From a virus, in the IMG/VR virus record IMGVR_UViG_3300037245_000991, positions 1 to 53,734 of that record: a stretch of DNA of 53,734 bases. One strand, written 5' to 3'. Both the position numbers and the translations under genes were made by a program. Below are positions 1 to 53,734 of this stretch, one piece after another (the stretch's first letter is position 1; each line of letters opens with the position of its first letter). The notes beneath the pieces were generated by a model that saw only the letters and a list, made by a program, of their open reading frames with translations, had not been told where the DNA came from and did not search any database.

Positions 1-242
1 AGCGAATACTTCCACTTGCCGTTCTTTGTGCTGAAAGACCAATACTGCTTGATGAATGACCACTCATGGGGTGTACTATATTTCATGTCCATCGGGTAGA
101 GGAACTGGCGGATACCTCTGTCTATGATCCCATCGACTGTAGTTAGATTCGTTCCAGTCGGAACAACACCATTGCTAGTTAAAGCAAGGAAGTTTGAAAC
201 CCGTATTCTCAAATCATTATAAGGAAGAGTTAATTTACTCAT
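1..242 (-). CDS. Head-tail adapter protein, N-terminal part (cut by window edge)
   Basis: The first 80 residues of a protein matching the complete copy at 50994-51785; the rest lies outside the window. It starts MSKLTLPYND where the other copy starts MAKLTLSYAD, then shares RGIRQFLYPMDMKY and the PHEWSFI stretch. ATG at 240-242 overlaps the stop of the upstream HNH gene (ATGAGTAA, 8 nt), and the GAGG before it lies inside the HNH coding sequence, so translation is probably coupled to the HNH gene. The head-tail connector role is inferred from position between capsid and tail genes. Confidence 0.8.
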   Translation of the reverse strand, partial: MSKLTLPYNDLRIRVSNFLALTSNGVVPTGTNLTTVDGIIDRGIRQFLYPMDMKYSTPHEWSFIKQYWSFSTKNGKWKYS

Positions 243-759
243 TACAAACCTCAAAAACGCTTAAATCATTGTGTAACTCTCTATGACAATTTGAACATAA
301 CAAAATACATTTATCTAATTCTTTTTTGAACACAACCCACTTGCCTGTTTTTAATTTACTTGTTTCACCTTCTTTTTTACATGGGTCTATGTGGTGAAAC
401 TCAAGCGCCGCTAAACATTTATTGTATCCACAACACGAACACTTGCCACCTTTATAATCAACGGCTTTTTGTTTGTTCTTTTGTCTTCGTACAGAATTTT
501 GTTTAAGTCTCTTTATTTTTGATTCAGGCCGCTTTCTCCACTCCTTTTCATACGCCTTTCGTTCTTTTTGATGTTTTCGAGCATATTTTCTTTTCTTAAT
601 CTGTATCTGTGTTTTGTTTTCAGAGTAGTATTTCTTTTGTGCTGCTATCTCGCAAACTTTACAACGGGCTTTTGGTCGGGGTCTATCTGACCGCATATAG
701 AAATTATCCCAAGATTTTTCCTTATGGCACACAGAACATTTCTTGGTAAGTTTTGCCAT
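235..759 (-). CDS. HNH endonuclease (free-standing homing type)
   Basis: 174 aa. An N-terminal zinc site (CSVC near residue 8, CKVC near 33) is followed by a very Lys/Arg-rich linker at about 45-100, then a C-terminal HNH fold: CSCC, EFHHIDP, CILLCSNCHRELH. The HH pair and the terminal N..H supply the His-Asn-His metal site; paired Cys bind structural zinc. It probably nicks or cuts DNA to spread its own gene. The gene is absent from the second copy of this region (about 51.79 kb), so it is a recent polymorphic insertion. It starts MAKLT, the same five residues as the adapter gene it precedes, and uses that gene's leader (AAGGAACGACA before ATG). Confidence 0.9.
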   Translation of the reverse strand: MAKLTKKCSVCHKEKSWDNFYMRSDRPRPKARCKVCEIAAQKKYYSENKTQIQIKKRKYARKHQKERKAYEKEWRKRPESKIKRLKQNSVRRQKNKQKAVDYKGGKCSCCGYNKCLAALEFHHIDPCKKEGETSKLKTGKWVVFKKELDKCILLCSNCHRELHNDLSVFEVCNE

Positions 760-814
760 TGTCGTTCCTTAAATTGGGAGCGGGAGGAACGCACCGCTCC
801 CCGGAGACAGAGTC

Positions 815-985
815 TTAATTATTACCGTCCGGTTCTTTCTTCTTCGCTTCCTTCGGTGTGTCGTCACACTTTGTTGCTTCTGTCACAACTTGCATCGACT
901 GTTGTAGCACCACATGGTCTGTTCGTGTGCCTTTGAACTCAGAACACACCTGATCCAGATTACCTAATGCTTCTTTGATTTCCAT
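815..985 (-). CDS. Small lysine-tailed protein between decoration-like and adapter genes
   Basis: 56 aa, starting MEIKEALGNLDQVCSEFKGT and ending in a charged Lys/Glu-rich tail (EAKKKEPDGNN). ATG at 983-985 follows GGAGACAGAA. A homologue at 51849-52028 is nearly identical over the first 38 residues but has a different, 3-residue longer tail. Conservation of the first part with mostly silent changes shows it is a real gene. It lies in the head operon; function unknown. Small head assembly or chaperone proteins occupy similar places in other phages, but nothing here proves that. Confidence 0.8.
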   Translation of the reverse strand: MEIKEALGNLDQVCSEFKGTRTDHVVLQQSMQVVTEATKCDDTPKEAKKKEPDGNN

Positions 986-1038
986 TTCTGTCTCCTTAAA
1001 ATGGGGAGAGCCAGATTGCTCTCCCCGTGTTCATCTGA

Positions 1039-1860
1039 TTAACCGTGATCCGACATCATAAACAGCGGACCATTACCACCGATACTACCTGCGATGGCAT
1101 ACCCTGCGATTTGCGAACTATTCGCAGCTTGAACAGTAACACCTAACGCGGTATTGATGTCTGACACATTGCCATAGTCGTGCCACCAACCACTCGCATA
1201 TCCGCCAGAGTTGCCGAAACTACCCTGCGGAATAGGCCAACAAATTCCCTTGGTCTGGAGCCAGAAGTAATTGGCTGCAGCCGAAACTACGGTAGTGGGG
1301 ACACCAGCCTTTACCTGATCCCTCAGTAGAGACTCAACCATAACACTCCAGGGGTTCGCATAAACCTCTGATATGTGAGTACCAGCCACGATGGCTTGGT
1401 TAAGTTGGCCGTCTAGCTGAATGGTGAACGCTGCTCCATTATCAGCAGCGTTATTGCCAACGATTCCTCTGAGTGTGGTCTCGTAGTCTGTGGCACCGTC
1501 CATGATAATCACATATCCACCACGCAAGAAATCAGCAGTCAGGGCGTCATGTGTGCCAGCAGCAATTGTGATCTCCGTTGAACCAGCATCATGGGATGTG
1601 GCAAACGCAGTGTACCCCAAATAACCACTATCAGAGAAAGAGCACGCCCTTGACGCATAGAGAGCAGTAGCCCCAGTAGATTTGGCGTACCGATACTCCC
1701 TGCCGTCTGCCAATACAAGGCGATCACCAATGTCGAACTCCTTATCCTTGGTAGTCGTCGGGGTCACATACAAGAAATTGATATTGGGCACCTGCGTCTC
1801 GTAGATACCCTTCTTGAGAGTATCATCGAAATGCTTTGTGTAAGCAAAACCTTTAGCCAT
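1039..1860 (-). CDS. Capsid-associated structural protein, probably head decoration
   Basis: 273 aa, directly downstream of the major capsid gene. No transmembrane segment or signal. It is beta-rich in composition, with an early DIGDRLVLADGREYRYAKST segment and a Gly/Ala-rich end (AGYAIAGSIGGNGPLFMM). A second copy at 52083-52904 differs at about ten residues (for example YETT/YNTT, EVYANP/EVYQNP, VSDINT/VSDIET), while the DNA differs at many more, mostly third positions, so the protein is under purifying selection. The position one gene after major capsid and probable abundance suggest a decoration or second capsid component. I do not recognise the family with certainty. Confidence 0.65.
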   Translation of the reverse strand: MAKGFAYTKHFDDTLKKGIYETQVPNINFLYVTPTTTKDKEFDIGDRLVLADGREYRYAKSTGATALYASRACSFSDSGYLGYTAFATSHDAGSTEITIAAGTHDALTADFLRGGYVIIMDGATDYETTLRGIVGNNAADNGAAFTIQLDGQLNQAIVAGTHISEVYANPWSVMVESLLRDQVKAGVPTTVVSAAANYFWLQTKGICWPIPQGSFGNSGGYASGWWHDYGNVSDINTALGVTVQAANSSQIAGYAIAGSIGGNGPLFMMSDHG

Positions 1861-1892
1861 TTTCTTATTCCTTAAAAAGTGTTGTCACTCGA

Positions 1893-2990
1893 TTACGAAC
1901 TCGGATGTTGAGACACGAGGAAACCAGCGTTCTGTGGATCATTGCACCACATCTGATACCGGATGTAGACGAGTCGCTGCATCACAACAGCACGAGTCGG
2001 ATCAGTGCCAGTGAGTTCTTTGAAGTTCCAGTTCGAGTCAACGACCGGGAAGATGTTACTGTGGTTAAGACCGAAGATCGGGTCCGTGCCATACAGTGAC
2101 GTGCGGGCTGTGTCGAAGAGATCGACATACGCGAGCGGGATGCTCCTAAATGTGGGCGTACCCCAATGCGAATCTTCACGATACCCCATTTGATCGTCGG
2201 CCTTTGCGTAGAACGTGTTTAGTTTGGCGATCACGTTATCAGAGGTGTACATCGAAAAGTCGAGCAAACCGTTCTTGCCCTGACTCGGGTCCATTGGCAC
2301 AACAGGAGCCTGGAACCCAGTCTTGCGCACAGCACGATCCAACAGCGTGAGCAGAGACTCATCAATGTTGCCCAGATGGTCAGCGTAATAACTTGCCCAC
2401 CCAGAGTTGTTCGATGCGGACGAGTTCAAACCCGCCGTATCATAGGCTGTACCGGGGGTGCTGCCGTCGTTGTAGCGGGACTGATAACCAGTCCAACCAC
2501 CAGTACTGGAAGCAGTGCCAACTCGGAGCCAGGTGTTAATCGAGTTCGGGCTGAGGGAATCGTTTGCACCAGTAGGCCCAGTAAGCATCGAAAGATAAAC
2601 ACCTTCAAGGATGTCCTTCATCGCAGATCGGTACTGAGACGCTAGTACATCATAAATCTTCTGGGCACCGCTGTTGAGTGATGTTTCCATCGTGTTCCAA
2701 AGCATACCGCCCTTACCCTGACGCCAGTTGGCTGTATACCGCTTCTGGATGTTCACCTTTTTGAGTGTGTCCTGGTCCCAAATACCAACCAGCTTGAAGT
2801 TATCCTCTTTGTCAAGAGTGATATGACCCTCAAGATAGTCACCACTACTCTCTTTGGCCGCGTGCTGCCAGAACTTGTTGTACAACTGCCATCTTCGATA
2901 CGCGAACGTAGCCAAGGCGGGTTCTTTGGTTATGATATTCTGGAGTGTTGCATTCCAAATATCTGTTGCGAGACTAAAATCAGTAGCCAT
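1893..2990 (-). CDS. Major capsid protein
   Basis: 365 aa, probably the HK97-fold coat protein forming the head shell. It lies directly downstream of the scaffold gene, where major capsid genes normally are, and has the soluble, Trp/Tyr-rich composition of phage coat proteins with no signal or membrane segment. The region KWNTMETSL-like (about residue 100) and the C-terminal stretch FKELTGTDPTRAVVMQRL are strongly conserved with the partial second copy at 52937-53734, which differs at about a dozen residues over 265. ATG at 2988-2990 follows AAAGGAAC. The assignment rests on operon position and general resemblance, since no short diagnostic motif exists. Confidence 0.85.
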   Translation of the reverse strand: MATDFSLATDIWNATLQNIITKEPALATFAYRRWQLYNKFWQHAAKESSGDYLEGHITLDKEDNFKLVGIWDQDTLKKVNIQKRYTANWRQGKGGMLWNTMETSLNSGAQKIYDVLASQYRSAMKDILEGVYLSMLTGPTGANDSLSPNSINTWLRVGTASSTGGWTGYQSRYNDGSTPGTAYDTAGLNSSASNNSGWASYYADHLGNIDESLLTLLDRAVRKTGFQAPVVPMDPSQGKNGLLDFSMYTSDNVIAKLNTFYAKADDQMGYREDSHWGTPTFRSIPLAYVDLFDTARTSLYGTDPIFGLNHSNIFPVVDSNWNFKELTGTDPTRAVVMQRLVYIRYQMWCNDPQNAGFLVSQHPSS

Positions 2991-5036: not shown

Positions 5037-5414
5037 TTACGTTGTTCCAATTACCCACACCTCAAACACCGGCGTCTCCGCCGCACCATTGTTCTTCACA
5101 TGTGTCACCCCGGCTGGATTCGTTATCACCGCACACGGCCCTCCGGCCTTGATCGTCATATCAACATCAAACGAAGCGGCATAATCAAGATCAATGTCGA
5201 GATCGAGAGTGACGGCCCGGATGATGATGCACGTCGCTACGGCCACGTCACCCTGGTCAATGACCTCGTCGGCATCAGCCGTGGTTAGCGTCCGGTACTG
5301 TCGTCCAGTCGTGGCTGTCGGGGTCGTCCCGTCTGTCCCTTTGTCGAGAAACGATATATCCTGGCCGAGTCCTTGTAGCTCGGCGATAACTGATACGTCC
5401 AGAGTGGCGGCCAT
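5037..5414 (-). CDS. Small beta-rich protein after portal
   Basis: 125 aa, Thr/Asp/Val-rich, without membrane segments (for example TPTATTGRQYRTLTTADAD, VTLDLDIDLDYAASFDVDM). The ATG overlaps the portal stop, so it is translated with portal. The composition suggests a beta-sandwich structural protein, perhaps a head decoration or fibre subunit. No family is recognised with confidence. Confidence 0.65.
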   Translation of the reverse strand: MAATLDVSVIAELQGLGQDISFLDKGTDGTTPTATTGRQYRTLTTADADEVIDQGDVAVATCIIIRAVTLDLDIDLDYAASFDVDMTIKAGGPCAVITNPAGVTHVKNNGAAETPVFEVWVIGTT

Positions 5415-7186
5415 TATTTAACTCCCTTATCTGCGCCAATCGGCGATGCCGCCAACTGACCTTGCTTACTTGAACTATTAGCTTCACGACTCCCCACCAG
5501 AGCACCAAAACTATCGTTTCCCTGCCCAGGACTCTTATTACTCTCAGGTCGCTTCTGTCCAGTCGGCTGCATCGTGAATGGCACCACGTCGGTCTGACCT
5601 GGCACCGCAGTACGGTACAACTGATTGAAGTCATCGAACCCAAGATACGCTGCCATACGCTTGGTGGCTTCGGGTATGTCGAACTCAGCCCCTTGCTGTT
5701 CGGCCATCGGCATCGTGGGCAAAACCCACTGCGATGCAAACTGCATCATACGTTGATACTTGACTTCGGGTGACATGCGTTGCGTCGAGTATGGCACGAT
5801 CTTGAACACGAAGTCATAGAACTCACCGACCTTATCAGCCTGTGAGAAAACTTTCGGTAACGTCCCAACCCCAGGCACCTCATGGATCAGAGGGATGTAA
5901 ACTGTAGGATCAGTCCATATCCGCCAGGCCAGCTTCTTCAAGATCGAGGTCTGAAACCTATGGAACCGGGTGCCCATGTTGTTGATAATGCGGGATGCGT
6001 TTTGGTGAAGCATCTGATCCTGACCCAACGTGGGAGAGCCTGTTCCAGCCCCCCTCATAATCGGTTCAGTTCCACCTGATTTATCGAACACGCTCTCAAC
6101 GAAGGCCATCCATTCTGGTCCCGCAGGATTCATACCGCCGAGACTGATCTGTTTGATACCTTGTGTGTCCTTAACCTGCAACACGTCTACGTTCTTGGCG
6201 TTTGTGACCTGTTCGCCCAACTTCTTGTTCGGAGCTTCAGTCAAGATCAAATCCTTCTGTGACTCTGCCTGTTCTCTTGCTGTCTTACCAACGATGTTCA
6301 TCGACACATCAGCATCGTGCCAGAACCACGCCGGGGGTATTGGAACGGGATGGCCAGGGAAGTACTTGTACCCAAGATAATCGTAGGGCGATTCTTTGGG
6401 GCCGTCCTCTTCGACTGATCGTAGAATCTTGGCCGTCTTGCCCTCGGGCATAATCGTGACAGTACGATTCTCGTCGAACAGATAGATGTCAATGAATGTG
6501 GTCTGATCCCGAAGTGAGAGTTTGTTTCTGTTGAAATTGGGATCAGAGATTCTCTTCGGCGAGTAATCGCCAATCAATTTGCAATCGGGCTTAATGAGAT
6601 CAGCGTGCTTCGGGAACAACTCTTGAGCGTATGCGGTCGGTAATTTGTAGATGTCACCTTCAAAGGCGAAGTCTCCTCGATCTCTGGCTATTGGATCACC
6701 GACATAATCAGTATCGTGGATGACCTTGACAGTCGGTCGTCCGGCCTTGATGATCTCATCCTCCAATGTCACTCTGCGGTCGTACTCGGTGAACGTGCGC
6801 GTGATCGCAGCACCGAACATCGAGTTGATCGCCGCTGGGATCAATACTGTATCGGCGAGTTCCATCTGGCCGATGAAGAAGTTCAAGGCCAATTGGGTAG
6901 TGTACGCCCACGGCTTGTAATTACCAACCAGAGTTTCAACCATCACCTTCGGATCACCCTCGACCAGGAATGGAACGATAGTTCCTACGCCTCTGTCGAT
7001 CAGGTTGATGAGGTGTTCCCGGTTGTTGTTCGTGTTGAAGAACCCAGACGCCCAAAGCCGCAGCATCACCTGCTGGTGTTTGAACGGGGCTTCGTTCATT
7101 TGATACCACAGTTTAGTCAGCTTCTGTAGTCTCGCCGGGAAACTGAGTTTCTTGTTTAATTCGTGTATCGGGTGTGGGTGTGCCAT
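5414..7186 (-). CDS. Portal protein
   Basis: 590 aa. The portal forms the dodecameric ring at the head vertex through which DNA is packaged. Supporting evidence: size, position directly after large terminase (start overlapping its stop), the helical N-terminal region, an SLRDQTTFIDIYLFDE-type beta domain, a tunnel-like helical stretch around residues 300-330, and a typical disordered, Gln/Ser/Gly-rich C-terminus (KRPESNKSPGQGNDSFG, EANSSSKQGQLAASP). It is somewhat longer than T7-type portals and similar to other marine podovirus-type portals. The assignment is by context plus general resemblance. Confidence 0.85.
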   Translation of the reverse strand: MAHPHPIHELNKKLSFPARLQKLTKLWYQMNEAPFKHQQVMLRLWASGFFNTNNNREHLINLIDRGVGTIVPFLVEGDPKVMVETLVGNYKPWAYTTQLALNFFIGQMELADTVLIPAAINSMFGAAITRTFTEYDRRVTLEDEIIKAGRPTVKVIHDTDYVGDPIARDRGDFAFEGDIYKLPTAYAQELFPKHADLIKPDCKLIGDYSPKRISDPNFNRNKLSLRDQTTFIDIYLFDENRTVTIMPEGKTAKILRSVEEDGPKESPYDYLGYKYFPGHPVPIPPAWFWHDADVSMNIVGKTAREQAESQKDLILTEAPNKKLGEQVTNAKNVDVLQVKDTQGIKQISLGGMNPAGPEWMAFVESVFDKSGGTEPIMRGAGTGSPTLGQDQMLHQNASRIINNMGTRFHRFQTSILKKLAWRIWTDPTVYIPLIHEVPGVGTLPKVFSQADKVGEFYDFVFKIVPYSTQRMSPEVKYQRMMQFASQWVLPTMPMAEQQGAEFDIPEATKRMAAYLGFDDFNQLYRTAVPGQTDVVPFTMQPTGQKRPESNKSPGQGNDSFGALVGSREANSSSKQGQLAASPIGADKGVK

Positions 7187-9183
7187 TAGAACAGTTCTCT
7201 CCGCATCTCACGTTTATCCTTCGCTTCCTTCGTCTTCCGCTCATTCTCGTAGTACGCAAAACTCCCGAACGGTCGATCCACGGCATCCTCTGTGTTCCCG
7301 GCCTGTTGCTCCTTATACGCCAACACACACAGTCCCGCAGCAATCACGCGGTCGCCGTGGCGTTCCAAGGCCCCGGTCGAGATGTCGGCCTTCTTCGACG
7401 CGACGGCCCCCTTGCCCTTCTCGCGGAAGATGTAGTCGCACAACTCTTCGTGCAGTTCTTTATCACGGATCACCAACGCCTTATACTCACTCACATCTGA
7501 TAACCCACCACTCAGGGCAATCCCCAATTCGCCCAAAAGGGCGTCCTTGGTGTTCCCAGTCGCGTTCCAGCCGTACTTGTTGATCTTCTTCCTGGTCTTC
7601 GAGTCTTCCCGTCGCTGGGTGTAGACGTTCGTGTACCCTTGAAACGTAATCCGCTGGCCCATCATAGACCCACAACCACCTGTGCTCTCCCAGATCAGAT
7701 AGCAGTCGGCGATCCCACCTACCCAGATCGCCAAGGCCACCAGTTGATCGGCGAACTCCTCGGGCTTGGTATTGGCATCGACCCATGACCCGACCTGTTC
7801 GTGGGTGTTCACATCAACGATCACAGCGGCGGAGTTGGCCGATCCAAGCCCGTAGGACGGATCAGCCGCGATGATGTAGTTGTGCCTCTGGTCCGGCCTG
7901 CCGAACGGGAGTTCGCCCCACCAGCGAAACCGTTTGGCTCCCCGGCCTGGACAGAACACCATACTGTCCTCTACGACGCGGTCGTCATCCAGTTCGAAGA
8001 GGAGTTCTCCTTTGAGATCAGGGGGCCGAAGGTGTTTCTTTTTGATGTCGGCGAGGACCGCGTGGTCAAATGGAGCATCGCTGGCCCCTAGAGCAGTCCC
8101 ACAAACGTTACATTTGAAGTCTCGCACATCACCTTTACGTTCATCTTGCTGTCGATCGAACCACGGTGCTCTATGTGGTGACGGCACACCTTTAAGTCCA
8201 TCAGCGATAAACTGGACCCGTGTTTCTGTAGGACTCCACTCATCCACACTATCTAATATAAGTGCGGTAGACAAATCTTTATCTTTGTAATATGCCTCGT
8301 CAAGAATCTTATACTGTCCGGGTTCCGACGTATTGTATAAACCCATATTTTCGGTCGGGTTTTCATACCACATAAGAACAATATTTTTAACACTGGGTCG
8401 CAATAGTGCCTTGTTGAAGGAATGTTCTTGTCCGAGCCAATGCGTAGAACTGTATACAATACAAGGAGACACATCGTGGATCGACCCCTCGATGGCTTTA
8501 GCCGTACTGTGGTCAACACGACCGTATTCATCGAGAAGCATAGCCGTTGATCGGCTACCAGCACTGAAACTCTCATTCGTTGTCTCGCCGCTGATTCGAC
8601 TGTTGTTATAAGGAATGCGCATCAAGAGATGTGTACGATCAACATCCTTATTATAACCACATTGTTTTTTCCACCATGAGGGCAAATAAGTCATCACAGA
8701 GTCAGCTTTCGCAAATAGTGAATATAAATCACCTGACTTATCTACAAGTTTTTCCACCCTTGATCCGAGAATAAAATGGCTTAATTCTTCCAACAACGCC
8801 TTGGCCACAAACGTTTTGACACATATCTCTGACGCTCCTTCGCCACGATTCTTGTTAATACCGACATTGCGACCAGTGTCGATACATTCGACCAAATCTT
8901 CTACTGCTCGTATTTGGTTAGGCCGCAAATTAAAAGGTGGGTTTCGTTCAGACGGTTTTCTGGGTGGTCGAGGATCAAAGGTGAAGAACGACGTATTGAA
9001 CGCTATGGGGATGTACGCCCGACACATGCCGAGGAAAAAATCCTGTGCTTTCTGATCCGCAGAGAGATATTCATGCAGTTTGATTCTAAAGTCGCAGTTC
9101 TCGTACAGATCAGTCGGGATAATGTCGAAGAACGCCTGTGGTGAATCACAAAGAGCGAGAAGTTTGGCCATCTTCTTATTCAT
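7186..9183 (-). CDS. terL: Terminase large subunit
   Basis: 665 aa; the ATP-driven DNA packaging motor and headful or end-cutting nuclease. The N-terminal ATPase has a deviant Walker A (NKNRGEGAS, about 110-118, lacking the usual Lys before Ser/Thr) and Walker B with catalytic Glu (AMLLDE, 214-219). The C-terminal RNase H-like nuclease shows IIAADPSYG (Asp441) and LIWEST (Glu499) as metal ligands and a late GDRVIA segment. An extra CNVCG ... CPGRG Cys pair lies between the domains (about 358-414). The start ATGAATAA overlaps the small-subunit stop by 8 nt; the end overlaps portal. Confidence 0.95.
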   Translation of the reverse strand: MNKKMAKLLALCDSPQAFFDIIPTDLYENCDFRIKLHEYLSADQKAQDFFLGMCRAYIPIAFNTSFFTFDPRPPRKPSERNPPFNLRPNQIRAVEDLVECIDTGRNVGINKNRGEGASEICVKTFVAKALLEELSHFILGSRVEKLVDKSGDLYSLFAKADSVMTYLPSWWKKQCGYNKDVDRTHLLMRIPYNNSRISGETTNESFSAGSRSTAMLLDEYGRVDHSTAKAIEGSIHDVSPCIVYSSTHWLGQEHSFNKALLRPSVKNIVLMWYENPTENMGLYNTSEPGQYKILDEAYYKDKDLSTALILDSVDEWSPTETRVQFIADGLKGVPSPHRAPWFDRQQDERKGDVRDFKCNVCGTALGASDAPFDHAVLADIKKKHLRPPDLKGELLFELDDDRVVEDSMVFCPGRGAKRFRWWGELPFGRPDQRHNYIIAADPSYGLGSANSAAVIVDVNTHEQVGSWVDANTKPEEFADQLVALAIWVGGIADCYLIWESTGGCGSMMGQRITFQGYTNVYTQRREDSKTRKKINKYGWNATGNTKDALLGELGIALSGGLSDVSEYKALVIRDKELHEELCDYIFREKGKGAVASKKADISTGALERHGDRVIAAGLCVLAYKEQQAGNTEDAVDRPFGSFAYYENERKTKEAKDKREMRRELF

Positions 9184-9859
9184 TCAATGACTCCACGAAC
9201 TCCGTCTCGACAACCTCACCACCGAATGCTTTCAAAACTCCGGCACAGAACCCAGTGATCTCAGCTTTGGCATCGGCCTTGATCTCAACCGTCCGCTTGT
9301 CGATCTTGATCTCCTTGCGATCCATGAAGTACTCAGGCATCCGACTGGACAACAGACGAAAGAGTAGAGTTGAATCAGCGGACTGATGTTTCGGCTTCCT
9401 TCGTTTCTTGACAACCTTAAATTCTCCAGTCTCTGTTCCCTCTGCGTCCACCACTGGTTCAAGTTCTTCCTCTGTGTCTACCCAACTGTACCCAGTCGCA
9501 GCCTTCACTGCAACACGGATCAGATCGATGTCTGCTCGGGTCTTGGCAACCTCCAAGAACTCCGCCACAGACAGGCCCTGGGCTTTCAGTTCGGCCAACC
9601 AGTCCTCGCCGCACACTTCTGCACATCCAAGAATCACCCCGATGTCCGGTACTGTCCCACCCTCGCGGACGATGGCTTTAGTAATGAGAGCCAGATTCGT
9701 GGTCTCCTTGACCTTCCTCGTTCTGTTATGCTTCGCGGAGGTCCGTTTCTTCTGTGGCAGTCGCTTGGGTTTGTTCTTCTGTGGTCCCGTCTTGGGCGGG
9801 TTACTCACCCGAGCCAGGGCTCTGTTCAAATCAGTTGTCTTGGGGGATTTGGGGGGCAT
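9176..9859 (-). CDS. terS: Terminase small subunit
   Basis: 227 aa. A very basic, Pro/Lys-rich N-terminal 50 residues is followed by helical segments with an HTH-like part (TVPDIGVILGCAEVCGEDWL) and a C-terminal charged region (KVVKKRRKPKHQSADSTLLF, RMPEYFMDRKEIKIDKRTVE). The SADSTLLFRLL...MPEY phrase resembles small terminases or TerS-like phage DNA-binding proteins. Position immediately before terL, with overlap, fits. ATG at 9857-9859 forms a TGATG junction with the protease gene; a TTG one codon earlier is less likely. Confidence 0.8.
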   Translation of the reverse strand: MPPKSPKTTDLNRALARVSNPPKTGPQKNKPKRLPQKKRTSAKHNRTRKVKETTNLALITKAIVREGGTVPDIGVILGCAEVCGEDWLAELKAQGLSVAEFLEVAKTRADIDLIRVAVKAATGYSWVDTEEELEPVVDAEGTETGEFKVVKKRRKPKHQSADSTLLFRLLSSRMPEYFMDRKEIKIDKRTVEIKADAKAEITGFCAGVLKAFGGEVVETEFVESLNE

Positions 9860-10743
9860 CAATCAAATCCCGGCCACGCTTCGTACACGTCGTAGAGGTT
9901 GTCTTCCCACGATTGGCCCACCACTTCTCGCTCATAGCGATCCATTGCAAATAACAAAGAAATCATGGATATGTCTTTCACAAACACATCCACTGGAATA
10001 CAATAATGTACGTTGGGCTGTCGGCTCCCAACCCAAACACCAATAATCTTACCATCAAGAGTGAATAAAGGGCATCCGCTGTTACCGCCCCCACCTTCTG
10101 CTGTATTGCTGAACAAGATTGCCCATCGGTAATCAGGAGAACACCCAAAGTTTTCAAGATCGAGGTTCAAGGTTTGGATAATGCCCGTAGCAACTGCGTT
10201 AAAATGCCTCTTGCCCAATGTGCTGCCTATTGAATACACCCTCTGGCCCAACACACAATCCTTAATAGAACCGAGGCGAAGTGGAGTGAGTACAACCTTG
10301 TGTTCACCGAGAACAAAAGACCTCTCTTCTGTCCCACCTACCCAACCTACTCGCTCACAATCACCGGCTATACATGTGAGATCATCAATCCAAATATGGG
10401 CGACATCATTATCTTTATTGCTGTGCACTCTATTTGCCCGGACTTGATGACCGTCGTGTGTGGTTATCAGAACGTCCTCTATGTCGTTTACAACATGCCA
10501 CGCGGTCACAATATGTCGAGGTCCGACCACAAACCCACTCCCCTGCCGTGACGAGGCCTGGAGGTGAACGACGCCCTTGAGACTGGTCTGGACGAGGTCG
10601 GTGAAGTTCGGCTCTACGGCGGGTTGCGGATCAGGGTGATCGTAGACCAGACCCGTGATGAACCACGCTGCTATAACCAAGGTAGTCAATAACAACCCTA
10701 TCATCACTATATTCGCTATTTTATACACTCGCCACTCAGTCAT
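9859..10743 (-). CDS. Membrane-anchored trypsin-like serine protease
   Basis: 294 aa. One N-terminal transmembrane helix (about 10-33) anchors a chymotrypsin-fold protease domain. The triad is visible: His83 in AWHVV, Asp113 in KDNDVAHI, Ser222 in GGNSGCP, with GSGFVVGPRHIVT before the His as in HtrA/DegP-type enzymes. No PDZ domain follows. The short positive N-terminus (MTEWRVYK) makes topology ambiguous; the domain could be periplasmic or cytoplasmic. It lies between an SPFH gene (12 bp upstream) and terS (TGATG overlap), so all are co-transcribed. It could be a prohead protease, but chymotrypsin fold plus membrane anchor is unlike the usual S14/S49/U35 head proteases. Confidence 0.9.
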   Translation of the reverse strand: MTEWRVYKIANIVMIGLLLTTLVIAAWFITGLVYDHPDPQPAVEPNFTDLVQTSLKGVVHLQASSRQGSGFVVGPRHIVTAWHVVNDIEDVLITTHDGHQVRANRVHSNKDNDVAHIWIDDLTCIAGDCERVGWVGGTEERSFVLGEHKVVLTPLRLGSIKDCVLGQRVYSIGSTLGKRHFNAVATGIIQTLNLDLENFGCSPDYRWAILFSNTAEGGGGNSGCPLFTLDGKIIGVWVGSRQPNVHYCIPVDVFVKDISMISLLFAMDRYEREVVGQSWEDNLYDVYEAWPGFD

Positions 10744-10754
10744 CTCAGTCTCCT

Positions 10755-11285
10755 TTAGTCTATAGGCACTACCGACGTATCCCCTAGCACCCTGATGTTC
10801 CGTACCTTGCCTATGTCAGGCAAATACACCCGCATCAGCTTGATCCCCCATCCGCCCGCTGCTTCCCGCAGTCCCTTCCTGATCTCGGCCTTGATGGCCT
10901 CTCGGTCCTTCAACTCCTCGTAAGTGTGGGCCGAGACGAACTGCTCTATCACACCCCCAGCAACTGCTTCCAAACTCTTATCGAAGTTGTCGGTCTCGAA
11001 AATCGCCTTCTCAGCATCAGTGATCCGATAGAGGAGGGCTCCACGCACGGCCAGGTCCACCTCATCAGAGGTTGTGACTGACTGAGCCGCGAGCGTCAAA
11101 CCCTGTGTGGCCACATTCACCTTCACGAACTGGTGGATCAGAGGCCAATGGATATACCAACCGGGAGGTGTGGGGCTAACCCGACTCCCCAGCGTGATCC
11201 GCACTCCTGATTCATCAGGGTAGACGAAGTACAGTCGGGGTAGCCAACAGAACAGTAACTCGACCAGTTGGGTGATCCACGTCAT
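10755..11285 (-). CDS. SPFH / band-7 (stomatin-prohibitin-like) membrane protein
   Basis: 176 aa. A hydrophobic N-terminal segment (about 3-22) precedes an SPFH domain: YPDESGVRITLGSRVSPTPPG, then PGWYIHWPLIHQFVKVNVATQ, VTTSDEVDLAVRGALLYRI, the helical AGGVIEQFVSAHTYEEL and EIRKGLREAAGGWGIKLM, ending IGKVRNIRV. These are the successive elements of stomatin/HflK-HflC proteins; the long C-terminal coiled coil of cellular members is missing. Such proteins oligomerise on membranes and commonly pair with membrane proteases (HflKC with FtsH, stomatin with NfeD-type proteases). Here the next gene is a membrane-anchored serine protease, suggesting a functional pair. Confidence 0.88.
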   Translation of the reverse strand: MTWITQLVELLFCWLPRLYFVYPDESGVRITLGSRVSPTPPGWYIHWPLIHQFVKVNVATQGLTLAAQSVTTSDEVDLAVRGALLYRITDAEKAIFETDNFDKSLEAVAGGVIEQFVSAHTYEELKDREAIKAEIRKGLREAAGGWGIKLMRVYLPDIGKVRNIRVLGDTSVVPID

Positions 11286-11411
11286 CTCATAGTCCTAAAA
11301 GGACCGGAGGGCCGAGGGGCAGTCGTGCCCTACTCCGCCCGTCCGGTCTATACTGTACGCGCACGGGGTCTCGGCCTGTAAGCTGGACTCCCGTTATGAT
11401 CGCGGTTGTGG
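11286..11411 (-). promoter_or_regulatory. Structured leader or attenuator before SPFH gene
   Basis: Non-coding gap between a small gene and the SPFH gene. On the transcribed (-) strand a 7-bp outer stem (11348-11342 with 11308-11302, GACCGGA/TCCGGTC) encloses an inner hairpin GGGCA-CGAC-TGCCC (11330-11317). The outer stem is followed by CTTTT. This looks like a weak intrinsic terminator or attenuator. It is too short for a tRNA, and no T-loop motif is present. Confidence 0.45.
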
Positions 11412-36919: not shown

Positions 36920-37156
36920 ATGAAAATCGAAATATGGGACAAAGATCAGAAGGAAGAGGAGCAGCCATTGAGGTTGCGGTTAGAACGAGAATTTGGTAAT
37001 ATATATCTGAATGCCGTTGATGCTAAGGGGCATCGTATTATTCAAGGTAGACTACTTGTGTTCCGCCCAGATGGTTGTTTTGAAAGGTGCCATCGAGTCA
37101 ACACAACTCTTGGTTTACAACTTGATGATGTGGATAGAGTGGAGGTAATCCAATGA
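36920..37156 (+). CDS. Hypothetical protein
   Basis: 78 aa, beta-rich (MKIEIWDKDQKEEEQPLRLR, GNIYLNAVDAKGHRIIQGRL). GGAGACAGAGAA before ATG, the leader more typical of the leftward block. Overlaps the lipoprotein start (ATGA). Unknown. Confidence 0.55.
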   Translation: MKIEIWDKDQKEEEQPLRLRLEREFGNIYLNAVDAKGHRIIQGRLLVFRPDGCFERCHRVNTTLGLQLDDVDRVEVIQ

Positions 37157-37593
37157 AAACACTCAAAACACTATCAGCAGTACTGTGCCTCGCCGCGTTC
37201 GCCGTCCTGATGGGGGCGTGTGCGATGCAGGATTATCTCGTGCCGTGTTATATTGACGAGCGAATGGGTGAGTACACCGACGCGAACATGACCAGCCTGA
37301 ACCCCTTCTATACGACCCTCGCTGATGCGCAGCGGTTGGGCAGAAAGTTCAACTTCGTGAGTGTAGAGAAGCGGGAAGCCTTGTTACAAGAGATCGAGAA
37401 GGGTAGTCGATTCGATGCTTTCTTGGCTAAGGGACATGAGTTATACATGATCGACGCCAACGCCCTACGCGAGACAATGTTCGGTGCAAACGGAGTCGTT
37501 AGTGCAACAATGGGTATGTTGGGTCTCGGGGCTGGGTGGATGTTCCTGAAACGTCCTGGTGATCTACGTAAAGAAGATGTTGAGGAAGTGTAA
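37153..37593 (+). CDS. Putative lipoprotein with C-terminal membrane helix
   Basis: 146 aa. Signal peptide LKTLSAVLCLAAFAVLMGAC ends in a lipobox-like MGAC (Cys23; Met rather than Leu at -3). A soluble mid part follows (TSLNPFYTTLADAQRLGRKF), and a second hydrophobic segment GVVSATMGMLGLGAGWMFL lies near the C-terminus, then acidic residues. It could tether to a host membrane on both ends; a spanin or superinfection-exclusion function is possible but unproven. GGAGG before ATG. Confidence 0.65.
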   Translation: MKTLKTLSAVLCLAAFAVLMGACAMQDYLVPCYIDERMGEYTDANMTSLNPFYTTLADAQRLGRKFNFVSVEKREALLQEIEKGSRFDAFLAKGHELYMIDANALRETMFGANGVVSATMGMLGLGAGWMFLKRPGDLRKEDVEEV

Positions 37594-50993: not shown

Positions 50994-51785
50994 TTATCCT
51001 TGACTGTAAATATCACTCTGATCCACATAAGCGAATCGTGTACACGGTCCACCTCCAGCATTCTCATCCAATCCGAGGCCCTTCCTTGTATAAAGGTTGC
51101 CTATCGTGCCTGTGTCTGCTTTGCCTGAATCAAACCGGATCGCGGTCTGAATCAACCGAGCTGCTTCCTGTTGGTGATGTGTGGACGTGTTGTCCTCTTC
51201 CTGGGTCTCGGCCACGGCCAGACATGATTCCAGGATCGCTTCGATGGCCATAATCCCACCGATCATCAGATCAGTGGTTGCCGCCAGCTTAACAGGATCA
51301 ATACGGTAGAAGCAGCTAAACGTATACTTCTGACTGGGGTTTGGGTAGAGCCACAATTCGTAAGTAGTCCCGATCTCGATGTCATATCGCTGGGGGATGA
51401 CGGCGTAGTATAAGGGCCATCCACTTGTGATCGTGTAGCTCCTCATCTCCTTGATCTGCTGTGCGCTTCGTTTGCGTGGGGGTCGCAGTGCTTGGCTGTC
51501 GTTGTGTGAGAGATCAGTGAGCATATCAGAGAAGTCCACAGGAAGCGAATATTTCCACTGTCCATTGACCGTGCTGAACGACCAATACTGCTCGATGAAT
51601 GACCACTCATGGGGTGTACCATATTTCATATCCATCGGATAGAGGAACTGGCGGATGCCACGATCAACGAGGTTTTTACACGTCGTTAGGTTGGTCCCTG
51701 TTGGGGCCGTACCATTGGGTGTAAGAGCAAGGAAGTTAGAGACTCGCGTGTATAGGTCAGCGTATGAGAGTGTGAGTTTGGCCAT
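50994..51785 (-). CDS. Head-tail adapter protein, complete copy
   Basis: 263 aa. RGIRQFLYPMDMKYGTPHEW, QYWSFSTVNGQWKYSLPVDF, YYAVIPQRYDIEIGTTYELW, then helical AIEAILESCLAVAETQEEDN with HHQQEAARLIQTAIRFDSGK. A helical protein with long C-terminal tail between capsid and tail genes fits a T7 gp11-like / P22 gp4-like adapter. ATG 51785 (MAKLTLSY) follows AAGGA with 6-bp spacing; the ATG two codons earlier has no room for one. The left copy (1-242) is split from this leader by an HNH gene. Confidence 0.75.
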   Translation of the reverse strand: MAKLTLSYADLYTRVSNFLALTPNGTAPTGTNLTTCKNLVDRGIRQFLYPMDMKYGTPHEWSFIEQYWSFSTVNGQWKYSLPVDFSDMLTDLSHNDSQALRPPRKRSAQQIKEMRSYTITSGWPLYYAVIPQRYDIEIGTTYELWLYPNPSQKYTFSCFYRIDPVKLAATTDLMIGGIMAIEAILESCLAVAETQEEDNTSTHHQQEAARLIQTAIRFDSGKADTGTIGNLYTRKGLGLDENAGGGPCTRFAYVDQSDIYSQG

Positions 51786-51848
51786 TGTCATTCCTTATCT
51801 TGATGCCAGCCGGGTAGTCCGCACCGGCCAACATCAGGAGACAGAGTC

Positions 51849-52028
51849 TTATTTCTTGTTGCCGTCTGATTCTTTTTTCTTGGGTTTGGCTTCTTTCGCA
51901 GTGTTATCCTGAACCGTAGCTGCTGTCACTACCTGCATCGACTGTTGTAATACCACATGATCTGTTCGTGTGCCTTTGAACTCAGAACACACCTGATCCA
52001 GATTACCTAATGCTTCTTTAACTTCCAT
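51849..52028 (-). CDS. Small lysine-tailed protein, second version
   Basis: 59 aa, MEVKEALGNLDQVCSEFKGT, the counterpart of 815-985. The first 36-38 residues are nearly unchanged, but the C-terminal tail differs (ATVQDNTAKEAKPKKKESDG). GGAGACAGGAA precedes ATG. The conserved/variable boundary suggests a structured N-terminal part and a free basic tail. Confidence 0.8.
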   Translation of the reverse strand: MEVKEALGNLDQVCSEFKGTRTDHVVLQQSMQVVTAATVQDNTAKEAKPKKKESDGNKK

Positions 52029-52082
52029 TTCCTGTCTCCTTAAAATGGGGAGAGCCGAATTGCTCTCCCCGTGTTCATCTGA

Positions 52083-52904
52083 TTAACCGTGGTCCGCCAT
52101 CATAAACAGAGGACCGTTGCCGCCAATACTGCCCGCTATGGCGTATCCAGCGATCTGTGAAGAGTTCGCGGCGACTACAGAGACGCCCAACGCAGTTTCT
52201 ATATCAGAAACGTTACCGTAATCGTGCCACCAACCACTCGCCAATCCACCGGAATTGCCGAAACTACCCTGCGGAATAGGCCAACAGATTCCCTTGGTCT
52301 GTAGCCAGAAGTAATTGGCCGCAGCCGAAACTATGGTAGTGGGAACACCAGCCTTTACCTGATCTCGCAAGAGGGACTCAACCATAACACTCCAGGGGTT
52401 CTGATAAACCTCTGATATATGAGTACCTGCCACGATGGCCTGGTTAAGTTGGCCATCCAACTGGATGGTGAACGCTGCCCCATTATCAGCAGCGTTATTA
52501 CCAACGATTCCTCTGAGTGTAGTGTTGTAGTCCGTAGCACCATCCATGATAATCACATACCCACCACGCAAGAAATCAGCAGTCAGGGCATCGTGTGTGC
52601 CAGCCGCAATCGTAATTTCAGTTGAGCCAGCATCGTGGGATGTGGCGAACGCAGTGTACCCCAAATAACCACTGTCAGAGAAAGAGCACGCCCTTGACGC
52701 ATAGAGAGCAGTAGCCCCAGTAGATTTGGCGTACCGATACTCCCTGCCGTCTGCCAATACAAGGCGATCACCAATGTCGAACTCCTTATCCTTGGTAGTC
52801 GTAGGAGTCACATACAAGAAGTTAATATTGGGCACCTGTGTTTCGTAAATACCCTTCTTGAGGGTATCGTCAAAGTGCTTTGTGTAAGCAAAACCTTTAG
52901 CCAT
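52083..52904 (-). CDS. Capsid-associated structural protein, second version
   Basis: 273 aa, the same length as the gene at 1039-1860 and about 96 percent identical at protein level by eye. Differences cluster near the end (VSDIETALGVSVVAAN against VSDINTALGVTVQAAN). Same role inferred: a decoration-like head protein. Confidence 0.65.
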   Translation of the reverse strand: MAKGFAYTKHFDDTLKKGIYETQVPNINFLYVTPTTTKDKEFDIGDRLVLADGREYRYAKSTGATALYASRACSFSDSGYLGYTAFATSHDAGSTEITIAAGTHDALTADFLRGGYVIIMDGATDYNTTLRGIVGNNAADNGAAFTIQLDGQLNQAIVAGTHISEVYQNPWSVMVESLLRDQVKAGVPTTIVSAAANYFWLQTKGICWPIPQGSFGNSGGLASGWWHDYGNVSDIETALGVSVVAANSSQIAGYAIAGSIGGNGPLFMMADHG

Positions 52905-52936
52905 TTTTCTATTCCTTAAAAAGTGTTGTCAATCGC

Positions 52937-53734
52937 TTACGAACTCGGGTGTTGGCTGACCAAGAACCCGGCGTTCTGTGGGTCGTTGCACCACATCTGA
53001 TACCGGATGTAGATGAGTCGCTGCATCACAACGGCACGAGTCGGATCAGTACCAGTGAGTTCTTTGAAGTTCCAGTTTGAGTCAACAATCGGGAAGAGGT
53101 TGCTATGGTTTATCCCGAAAATCGGATCAGTGCCATACAGTGACGTGCGGGCCTCATCAAAGAGATCGACATACGCGAGTGGGATGCTCCTAAACGTGGG
53201 CGTACCCCAATGCGAATCTTCACGATACCCCATTTGATCGTCGGCCTTCGCGTAGAACGAATTCAATTTAGCGATCACGTTATCAGAGGTGTACATCGAG
53301 AAGTCGAGCAAACCGTTCTTGCCCTGGCTCGGGTCCATCGGCACAACAGGAGCCTGGAACCCGGTCTTGCGCACAGCACGATCTAACAGCGTGAGCAGAG
53401 ACTCATCAATGTTGCCAAGGTGGTCGGCGTAGTAACTCGCCCACCCAGTGTTGTTCGACGCAGACGAGTTCAACCCTGCTGTATCATAAGCCGTGCCGGG
53501 GGTGCTGCCGTCATTGTAACGAGACTGATAACCAGTCCAACCACCAGTACTTGAGGCAGTGCCAACTCGGAGCCAAGTGTTAAGCGAGTTCGGGCTGAGA
53601 GAATCGTTTGCACTAGTAGGCCCAGTAACCATCGAAAGATAAACACCTTCGAGGATGTCCTTCATCGCAGAGCGATACTGAGACGCGAGTACGTCGTAAA
53701 TCTTCTGGGCACCACTGTTGAGCGACGTTTCCAT
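52937..53734 (-). CDS. Major capsid protein, second version (5' part cut by window end)
   Basis: 265 C-terminal residues of the coat protein matching residues 101-365 of the gene at 1893-2990. The window ends at an internal Met (METSLNSG), so the real start is outside. Substitutions are conservative (LTGPTG/VTGPTS, FGLNHSNIFPVV/FGINHSNLFPIV, DTARTS/DEARTS). Confidence 0.85.
   Translation of the reverse strand: METSLNSGAQKIYDVLASQYRSAMKDILEGVYLSMVTGPTSANDSLSPNSLNTWLRVGTASSTGGWTGYQSRYNDGSTPGTAYDTAGLNSSASNNTGWASYYADHLGNIDESLLTLLDRAVRKTGFQAPVVPMDPSQGKNGLLDFSMYTSDNVIAKLNSFYAKADDQMGYREDSHWGTPTFRSIPLAYVDLFDEARTSLYGTDPIFGINHSNLFPIVDSNWNFKELTGTDPTRAVVMQRLIYIRYQMWCNDPQNAGFLVSQHPSS

Follow-up and report, generated by a model that had tools for sequence, protein, structure and literature searches.

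Organization of the locus

The window analysed here is the whole 53,734-nucleotide stretch of the IMG/VR virus record IMGVR_UViG_3300037245_000991. Among its head and packaging genes, on the minus strand, lies a gene for a mini-SPFH (Band 7) protein of 176 residues (10755..11285, minus strand), which consists of an amphipathic N-terminal helix and an SPFH domain and was identified by Pfam (PF01145), sequence and fold. It is followed by a gene for a membrane-anchored, HtrA/DegS-type trypsin-like serine protease of 294 residues (9859..10743, minus strand), identified by Pfam (PF13365) and by PDB sequence and fold matches. The gap between the two genes is 11 bp; the preliminary description of this DNA was right that they are adjacent but gave the spacing as 12 bp. 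The stop codon of the protease gene and the ATG of terS overlap by one base (TGATG, 9861-9857), and the earlier placement of both genes directly before terS and terL is thereby borne out.

The terS candidate (small terminase subunit; 9176..9859, minus strand) was assigned from its position and from a 58% identical relative ahead of terL in the related locus L001; it has no Pfam or PHROG match. TerL, the large terminase subunit (7186..9183, minus strand), has tblastn matches in 109 phage records, the annotated ones being terminases. The portal protein (5414..7186, minus strand) was assigned from its position and conservation after terL and likewise has no Pfam or PHROG match. Relatives often have the protease gene immediately behind the portal gene. 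Many of them have terL split into two open reading frames with a gap or an overlap (L025:3922-6129 and several among L154 and L159-L173), which points to an intron, a homing element or frameshifts in this gene.

A strong RNA hairpin (11302..11348, minus strand) ends about 16 nt ahead of the SPFH start and is followed by CUUUU. Its folding energy is -35.1 kcal/mol (fold z -3.4), and only four U residues stand behind it. L001 has a hairpin of different sequence at the same place (z -1.9), whereas none is evident before SPFH in more distant relatives, and a terminator scan did not call the hairpin as a terminator. An attenuator had been proposed here, giving the two genes a dosage separate from that of the packaging genes. 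The hairpin itself is present, and it is possible that it acts as an attenuator or as a 5' stabiliser; a role in dosage is a reasonable guess in the window and in L001 but not beyond them.

The two ends of the window (1-2690 and 51544-53734) are collinear diverged copies of each other (88% over 1963 bp and 76% over 203 bp), and an HNH-like gene of 174 residues (235-759) is present in the left copy only. The arrangement resembles a circular or permuted genome of about 51 kb with ends derived from two strains, a genuine duplication of the capsid region being a possible alternative.

A predicted membrane-anchored protease related to HtrA and DegS

The window protease is a Trypsin_2 protein (Pfam, 3.7e-17), and HtrA/Deg proteases are its sequence matches in the PDB. 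The AlphaFold model built from the family alignment has a pLDDT of 82, and its closest PDB folds are Deg1, HtrA1, DegP and DegS, with DegS stripped of its PDZ domain among the best. No PDZ domain was matched by Pfam anywhere in the 294 residues; the sole C-terminal helix of the model ends at about residue 271, and residues 272-294 are of low confidence. The catalytic residues H83, D113 and S222 occur in the order His-Asp-Ser and are invariant in all 29 distinct family members, the window protein counted, so that the triad positions given in the preliminary description are exactly right. Its single membrane helix also agrees with our prediction of one N-terminal hydrophobic helix, with the anchor at about residues 12-30 and the model helix spanning residues 3-33.

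Every one of the 29 distinct family proteases has a hydrophobic segment near its N-terminus, preceded by positive charge, and two of them (in L001 and L032) carry a lipobox, the signal of lipoproteins. Cys163 and a second cysteine near residue 248, whose exact position varies by a few residues, occur together in 24/29 proteases and are both missing in the other 5/29; the covarying pair behaves as would be expected for a disulfide. Because the anchor is present in every copy, the lipobox in two, and the cysteine pair covaries, the phage protease is most likely exported, membrane-tethered and periplasm-facing, resembling a DegS without PDZ. This placement assumes a host with a periplasm. Elsewhere in the window (37153-37593), beside the replication genes, a predicted phage lipoprotein with the lipobox LMGAC fits a host that processes lipoproteins. 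One relative of the protease (L168:7046-7900) has a collagen-like GPQG/GEKG repeat between its anchor and the protease domain, possibly a spacer.

The phage protein thus has in common with the HtrA/DegS proteases a Trypsin_2 domain and a His-Asp-Ser triad, and its predicted N-terminal membrane anchor and periplasmic catalytic domain would match theirs. It differs from DegS and DegP in the missing C-terminal PDZ domain and in being encoded by a phage, within a head operon. A further difference lies in motifs such as GSIKDCVLGQ and GSPxGKxNFN, which most members of the phage subfamily have in common.

A mini-SPFH protein

The SPFH assignment made earlier is confirmed by the Band_7 profile (Pfam, 2.7e-23), by sequence matches to stomatin, QmcA and HflK in the PDB search, and by a model from the family alignment (pLDDT 74.5) whose fold matches stomatin (E 5e-14) and HflK (5e-12). 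By profile, sequence and fold alike, the phage protein therefore shares its SPFH domain with the stomatin/SPFH1 group (p-stomatin, QmcA); association with the membrane is predicted here. In contrast to stomatin, it has only about 176 residues and is without the C-terminal helical or coiled-coil part. The phage SPFHs of these related loci are about 160-185 residues long, the domain of the window protein stops near residue 158 of 176, and the C-terminal coiled-coil or helical region that would build a cage wall is missing from the phage SPFHs examined. In the tree they group as one clade, separate from the five cellular matches that were included (99/98).

The N-terminal hydrophobic segment claimed previously does correspond to a helix; it is, however, amphipathic and short rather than transmembrane (about 14 residues, with a conserved proline at its end and a maximal 19-residue hydropathy below 1.7). 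Since the phage SPFHs have no export signal, the cytoplasmic leaflet seems likelier for them than the periplasmic face. QmcA/YbbK has been reported on the cytoplasmic side, unlike HflK/C (PMC2636767).

Distribution among related phages

Scans of viral contigs with the protease profile gave 32 loci, and their ORF maps show the gene in one of two places, immediately behind the portal gene or upstream of terL. Against the bias that such an anchor brings, scans with terminase alignments were chosen as well, and 111 loci from these were annotated. Full flanks are available for 37 of the terL-anchored loci, of which 31 contain the protease and 8 contain SPFH. Within this uncultivated clade of tailed phages the protease ranks as a near-core gene.

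SPFH is present in 17/111 terL-anchored loci, some of them near-copies of each other, and a family protease is found nearby in 17/17, at distances of 2 bp to 1.7 kb. A scan anchored on an alignment of three SPFHs likewise found the protease wherever the contig has room, L050 ending at the contig edge, and Band_7 searches of whole contigs in 55 records found SPFH nowhere else. SPFH accompanies the protease in both genomic positions of the clade. For instance, in a phage contig from a Candidatus Aegiribacteria bin (L051) the order is protease, GroES-like gene, SPFH, terL, while in L147 and L168 the protease lies behind the portal gene and SPFH comes next, after 2 bp and 127 bp respectively. The expected conservation of the gene pair in relatives therefore holds for linkage (17/17), but not always for adjacency, the spacing reaching 1.7 kb; tight adjacency is seen only in the window, L001, L147, L168 and L036. 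Order and spacing vary, and most genomes with the protease are without SPFH.

The 15 SPFH rows with an upstream protease require at least 13 changes when mapped on the terL tree, and the distribution is patchy. SPFH has therefore been gained or lost many times, and its association with the protease has survived this turnover. The two genes are not evolving in step between the window and L001, because SPFH is 93% identical there while the proteases are 48-49% identical (terL, 74-75%). Across the loci, SPFH and protease distances corrected for terL correlate modestly, with r 0.35, a value tested against 2000 permutations (12/2000). The SPFH of L168 is 51-52% identical to the clade-2 SPFHs, its terL 26-28%. 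Transfer of SPFH between deep clades was considered; a single group is not rejected by the AU test (p 0.17), and we make no such claim. For neither the window protease nor the window SPFH did the phage GenBank collection yield a relative at 1e-5. Weaker matches obtained there with a family member as query are mostly HtrA-like and lie in other settings, some being apparently host-derived.

A cassette as the likelier unit

Two further kinds of gene accompany the protease. Cpn10/GroES-like genes always lie on the same side of terL as the protease (20 placements), and so do small HExxH genes (19 placements). The GroES/Cpn10 genes exceed the Pfam cut-off in three loci, and several such genes adjoin the protease (L035:8672-8986, L046:2068-2388, L037:2638-2997 and L051:5263-5601); none was detected in the window. 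HExxH genes of about 90 codons are located near the protease in L008 (589-870), L037 (4024-4296) and L028 (1719-2024). Their product is possibly a mini-metallopeptidase; the one in L008 matches no Pfam family. A conserved protein of about 110 residues with a DNxGNR-like motif near its start is often encoded shortly before the protease (L115:3752-4087, L120:1121-1471, L123:5303-5635 and L097:4254-4586) and is perhaps a virion decoration protein.

The joint position of SPFH and protease after the portal gene was considered as proof of a pair. The observation holds, but the GroES and HExxH genes used as controls show the same pattern. Because these genes track the protease equally, the locus is better described as an accessory cassette than as a private pair, and because the protease is nearly ubiquitous, its co-occurrence with SPFH is not statistically special. 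The two-gene module proposed in the preliminary description is thus not supported in that form, the protease occurring mostly without SPFH and in variable order and spacing. A functional link between the two proteins is possible and is kept alive by the residual correlation of their distances.

Relation to known systems

Archaea and bacteria pair stomatin with a membrane serine protease of the NfeD type (PMC2636767, PMC3795559). In this stomatin-NfeD (STOPP) operon the partner is NfeD, a Ser-Lys protease of the ClpP type or an OB domain, whereas the neighbour in the phage locus is a Trypsin_2 protein with a His-Asp-Ser triad and not of the NfeD/ClpP fold. HflK/HflC-FtsH shares with the phage locus the theme of an SPFH protein with a membrane protease, but HflK/C have a transmembrane helix and a coiled coil and face the periplasm, and FtsH is an ATP-dependent metalloprotease.

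Phages are known to encode each kind of protein singly. SPFH genes are carried by the T4-like phages Aeh1, 44RR and RB43 (PMC1524935) and, as here, a phage-encoded Band 7 domain is also found in the crAss-like cr128_1, where the gene, at 804 bp, is longer and has replication genes as neighbours, no adjacent gene being annotated as a protease. Trypsin-like proteases occur in Cluster N alphaproteobacterial phages (PMC10783043), and a trypsin-like or HtrA-like protease is phage-encoded in the Rhizobium phages AF3, P10VF and RHph_X2_25, as in our family. These proteases of other phages share 28-29% identity with one family member across part of the domain, lie in other genomic settings and have no SPFH annotated near them in the records read. 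In the open-access literature searched, neither a pairing of SPFH with a protease nor such a head-operon cassette with a GroES-like gene has been described in phages.

Possible role in the host envelope

We propose that the locus, as part of an accessory cassette, encodes an envelope protease that is made late and tethered to the membrane, with SPFH as an optional scaffold, and give this reading a probability of about 0.5. The cassette would sit inside the late head and packaging operon of an uncultivated clade whose gene content is podovirus-like. The DegS-like protease without PDZ would be its constant member, held in the inner membrane by its N-terminal anchor, or in a few relatives by a lipid anchor, with the catalytic domain in the periplasm. 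We infer that the protease is made late, together with the capsid proteins, and most likely cleaves envelope or periplasmic proteins of the host or the phage during assembly and lysis. SPFH would be an optional partner or tuner, a mini-stomatin bound to the cytoplasmic leaflet by its amphipathic helix. There it probably assembles into a ring or patch, or else enters host SPFH rings, and it may organise the membrane at the sites of action of the protease and of other late membrane proteins of the phage. A role in envelope or membrane proteostasis late in infection fits the head-operon setting, the export features and the GroES-like neighbours.

The strongest competing explanation holds that SPFH and protease are functionally unlinked late accessory genes that merely share a variable spot in the head operon, one which shifts as a block between two positions and gathers protein-handling genes. 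The equal behaviour of the GroES-like (20) and HExxH (19) placements points this way, as do the variable spacing and order and the many protease genomes without SPFH. On the other side, no SPFH was encountered apart from the protease, although six full protease-free loci give this little power; it is found nowhere else in the whole contigs of the 55 records; and the partial distance correlation speaks for some connection. We regard this explanation as a serious contender, if one that we would not bet on.

A narrower form of the envelope-protease proposal, overlapping with it, is superinfection exclusion or anti-defence, in which the protease would degrade a host receptor or an envelope defence sensor and the mini-SPFH would disturb host SPFH assemblies by entering them as a mini-subunit. 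The predicted periplasmic orientation of the protease is compatible with it, as is the optional and patchy SPFH, a pattern shown by host-interaction genes, and an SPFH without a coiled coil could conceivably cap host rings. A position in the head operon is less typical of exclusion genes, and we consider this form unlikely. We are similarly doubtful of a more elaborate version of the proteostasis proposal, in which a periplasm-facing protease, an optional mini-SPFH, the GroES-like protein and the HExxH protein would form one envelope proteostasis cassette made with the capsid, and the mini-SPFH would act across the membrane on the protease or insert into host SPFH rings (HflKC, QmcA), disabling or redirecting them.

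The preliminary description had envisaged a complex similar to HflKC-FtsH or stomatin-NfeD, in which an SPFH cage or ring encloses and regulates the protease. The fold matches to stomatin, HflK and QmcA, the gene linkage and the known pairing of SPFH proteins with membrane proteases (PMC2636767, PMC3795559) would suit such an arrangement. An HflKC-like cage is nevertheless not supported, because the phage SPFHs, at about 160-185 residues, have no coiled coil for a wall and only an amphipathic N-terminal helix where a transmembrane helix would be expected. SPFH and the protease domain are moreover predicted on opposite faces of the membrane, and most family proteases occur without any SPFH, which leaves this arrangement improbable.

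Substitution for a prohead protease, cleaving scaffold or capsid, was another earlier suggestion; although many relatives have the trypsin-like gene directly after portal and before the scaffold and capsid genes, and no other protease family was recognised among the window proteins scanned, it is highly improbable, because all copies carry export signals (membrane anchor or lipobox, alongside the covarying cysteine pair) and two long relatives of nearly genome length that keep the capsid gene have no Trypsin_2 gene (L111, 50.2 kb, and L139, 48.5 kb, contigs that may be incomplete), while other genomes keep the protease upstream of terL.

Single SPFH or trypsin-like genes were already known in phages; the protease-centred head-operon cassette would be the new element in the light of the papers found, and it suggests a phage family with its own tools for handling envelope proteins. 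A mini-SPFH without the cage wall would lend itself, as a naturally minimal system, to finding out what an SPFH domain by itself does at a membrane. Should the protease act in the envelope during late infection, it would provide a concrete route to remodelling of the host envelope or to protection of phage membrane proteins.
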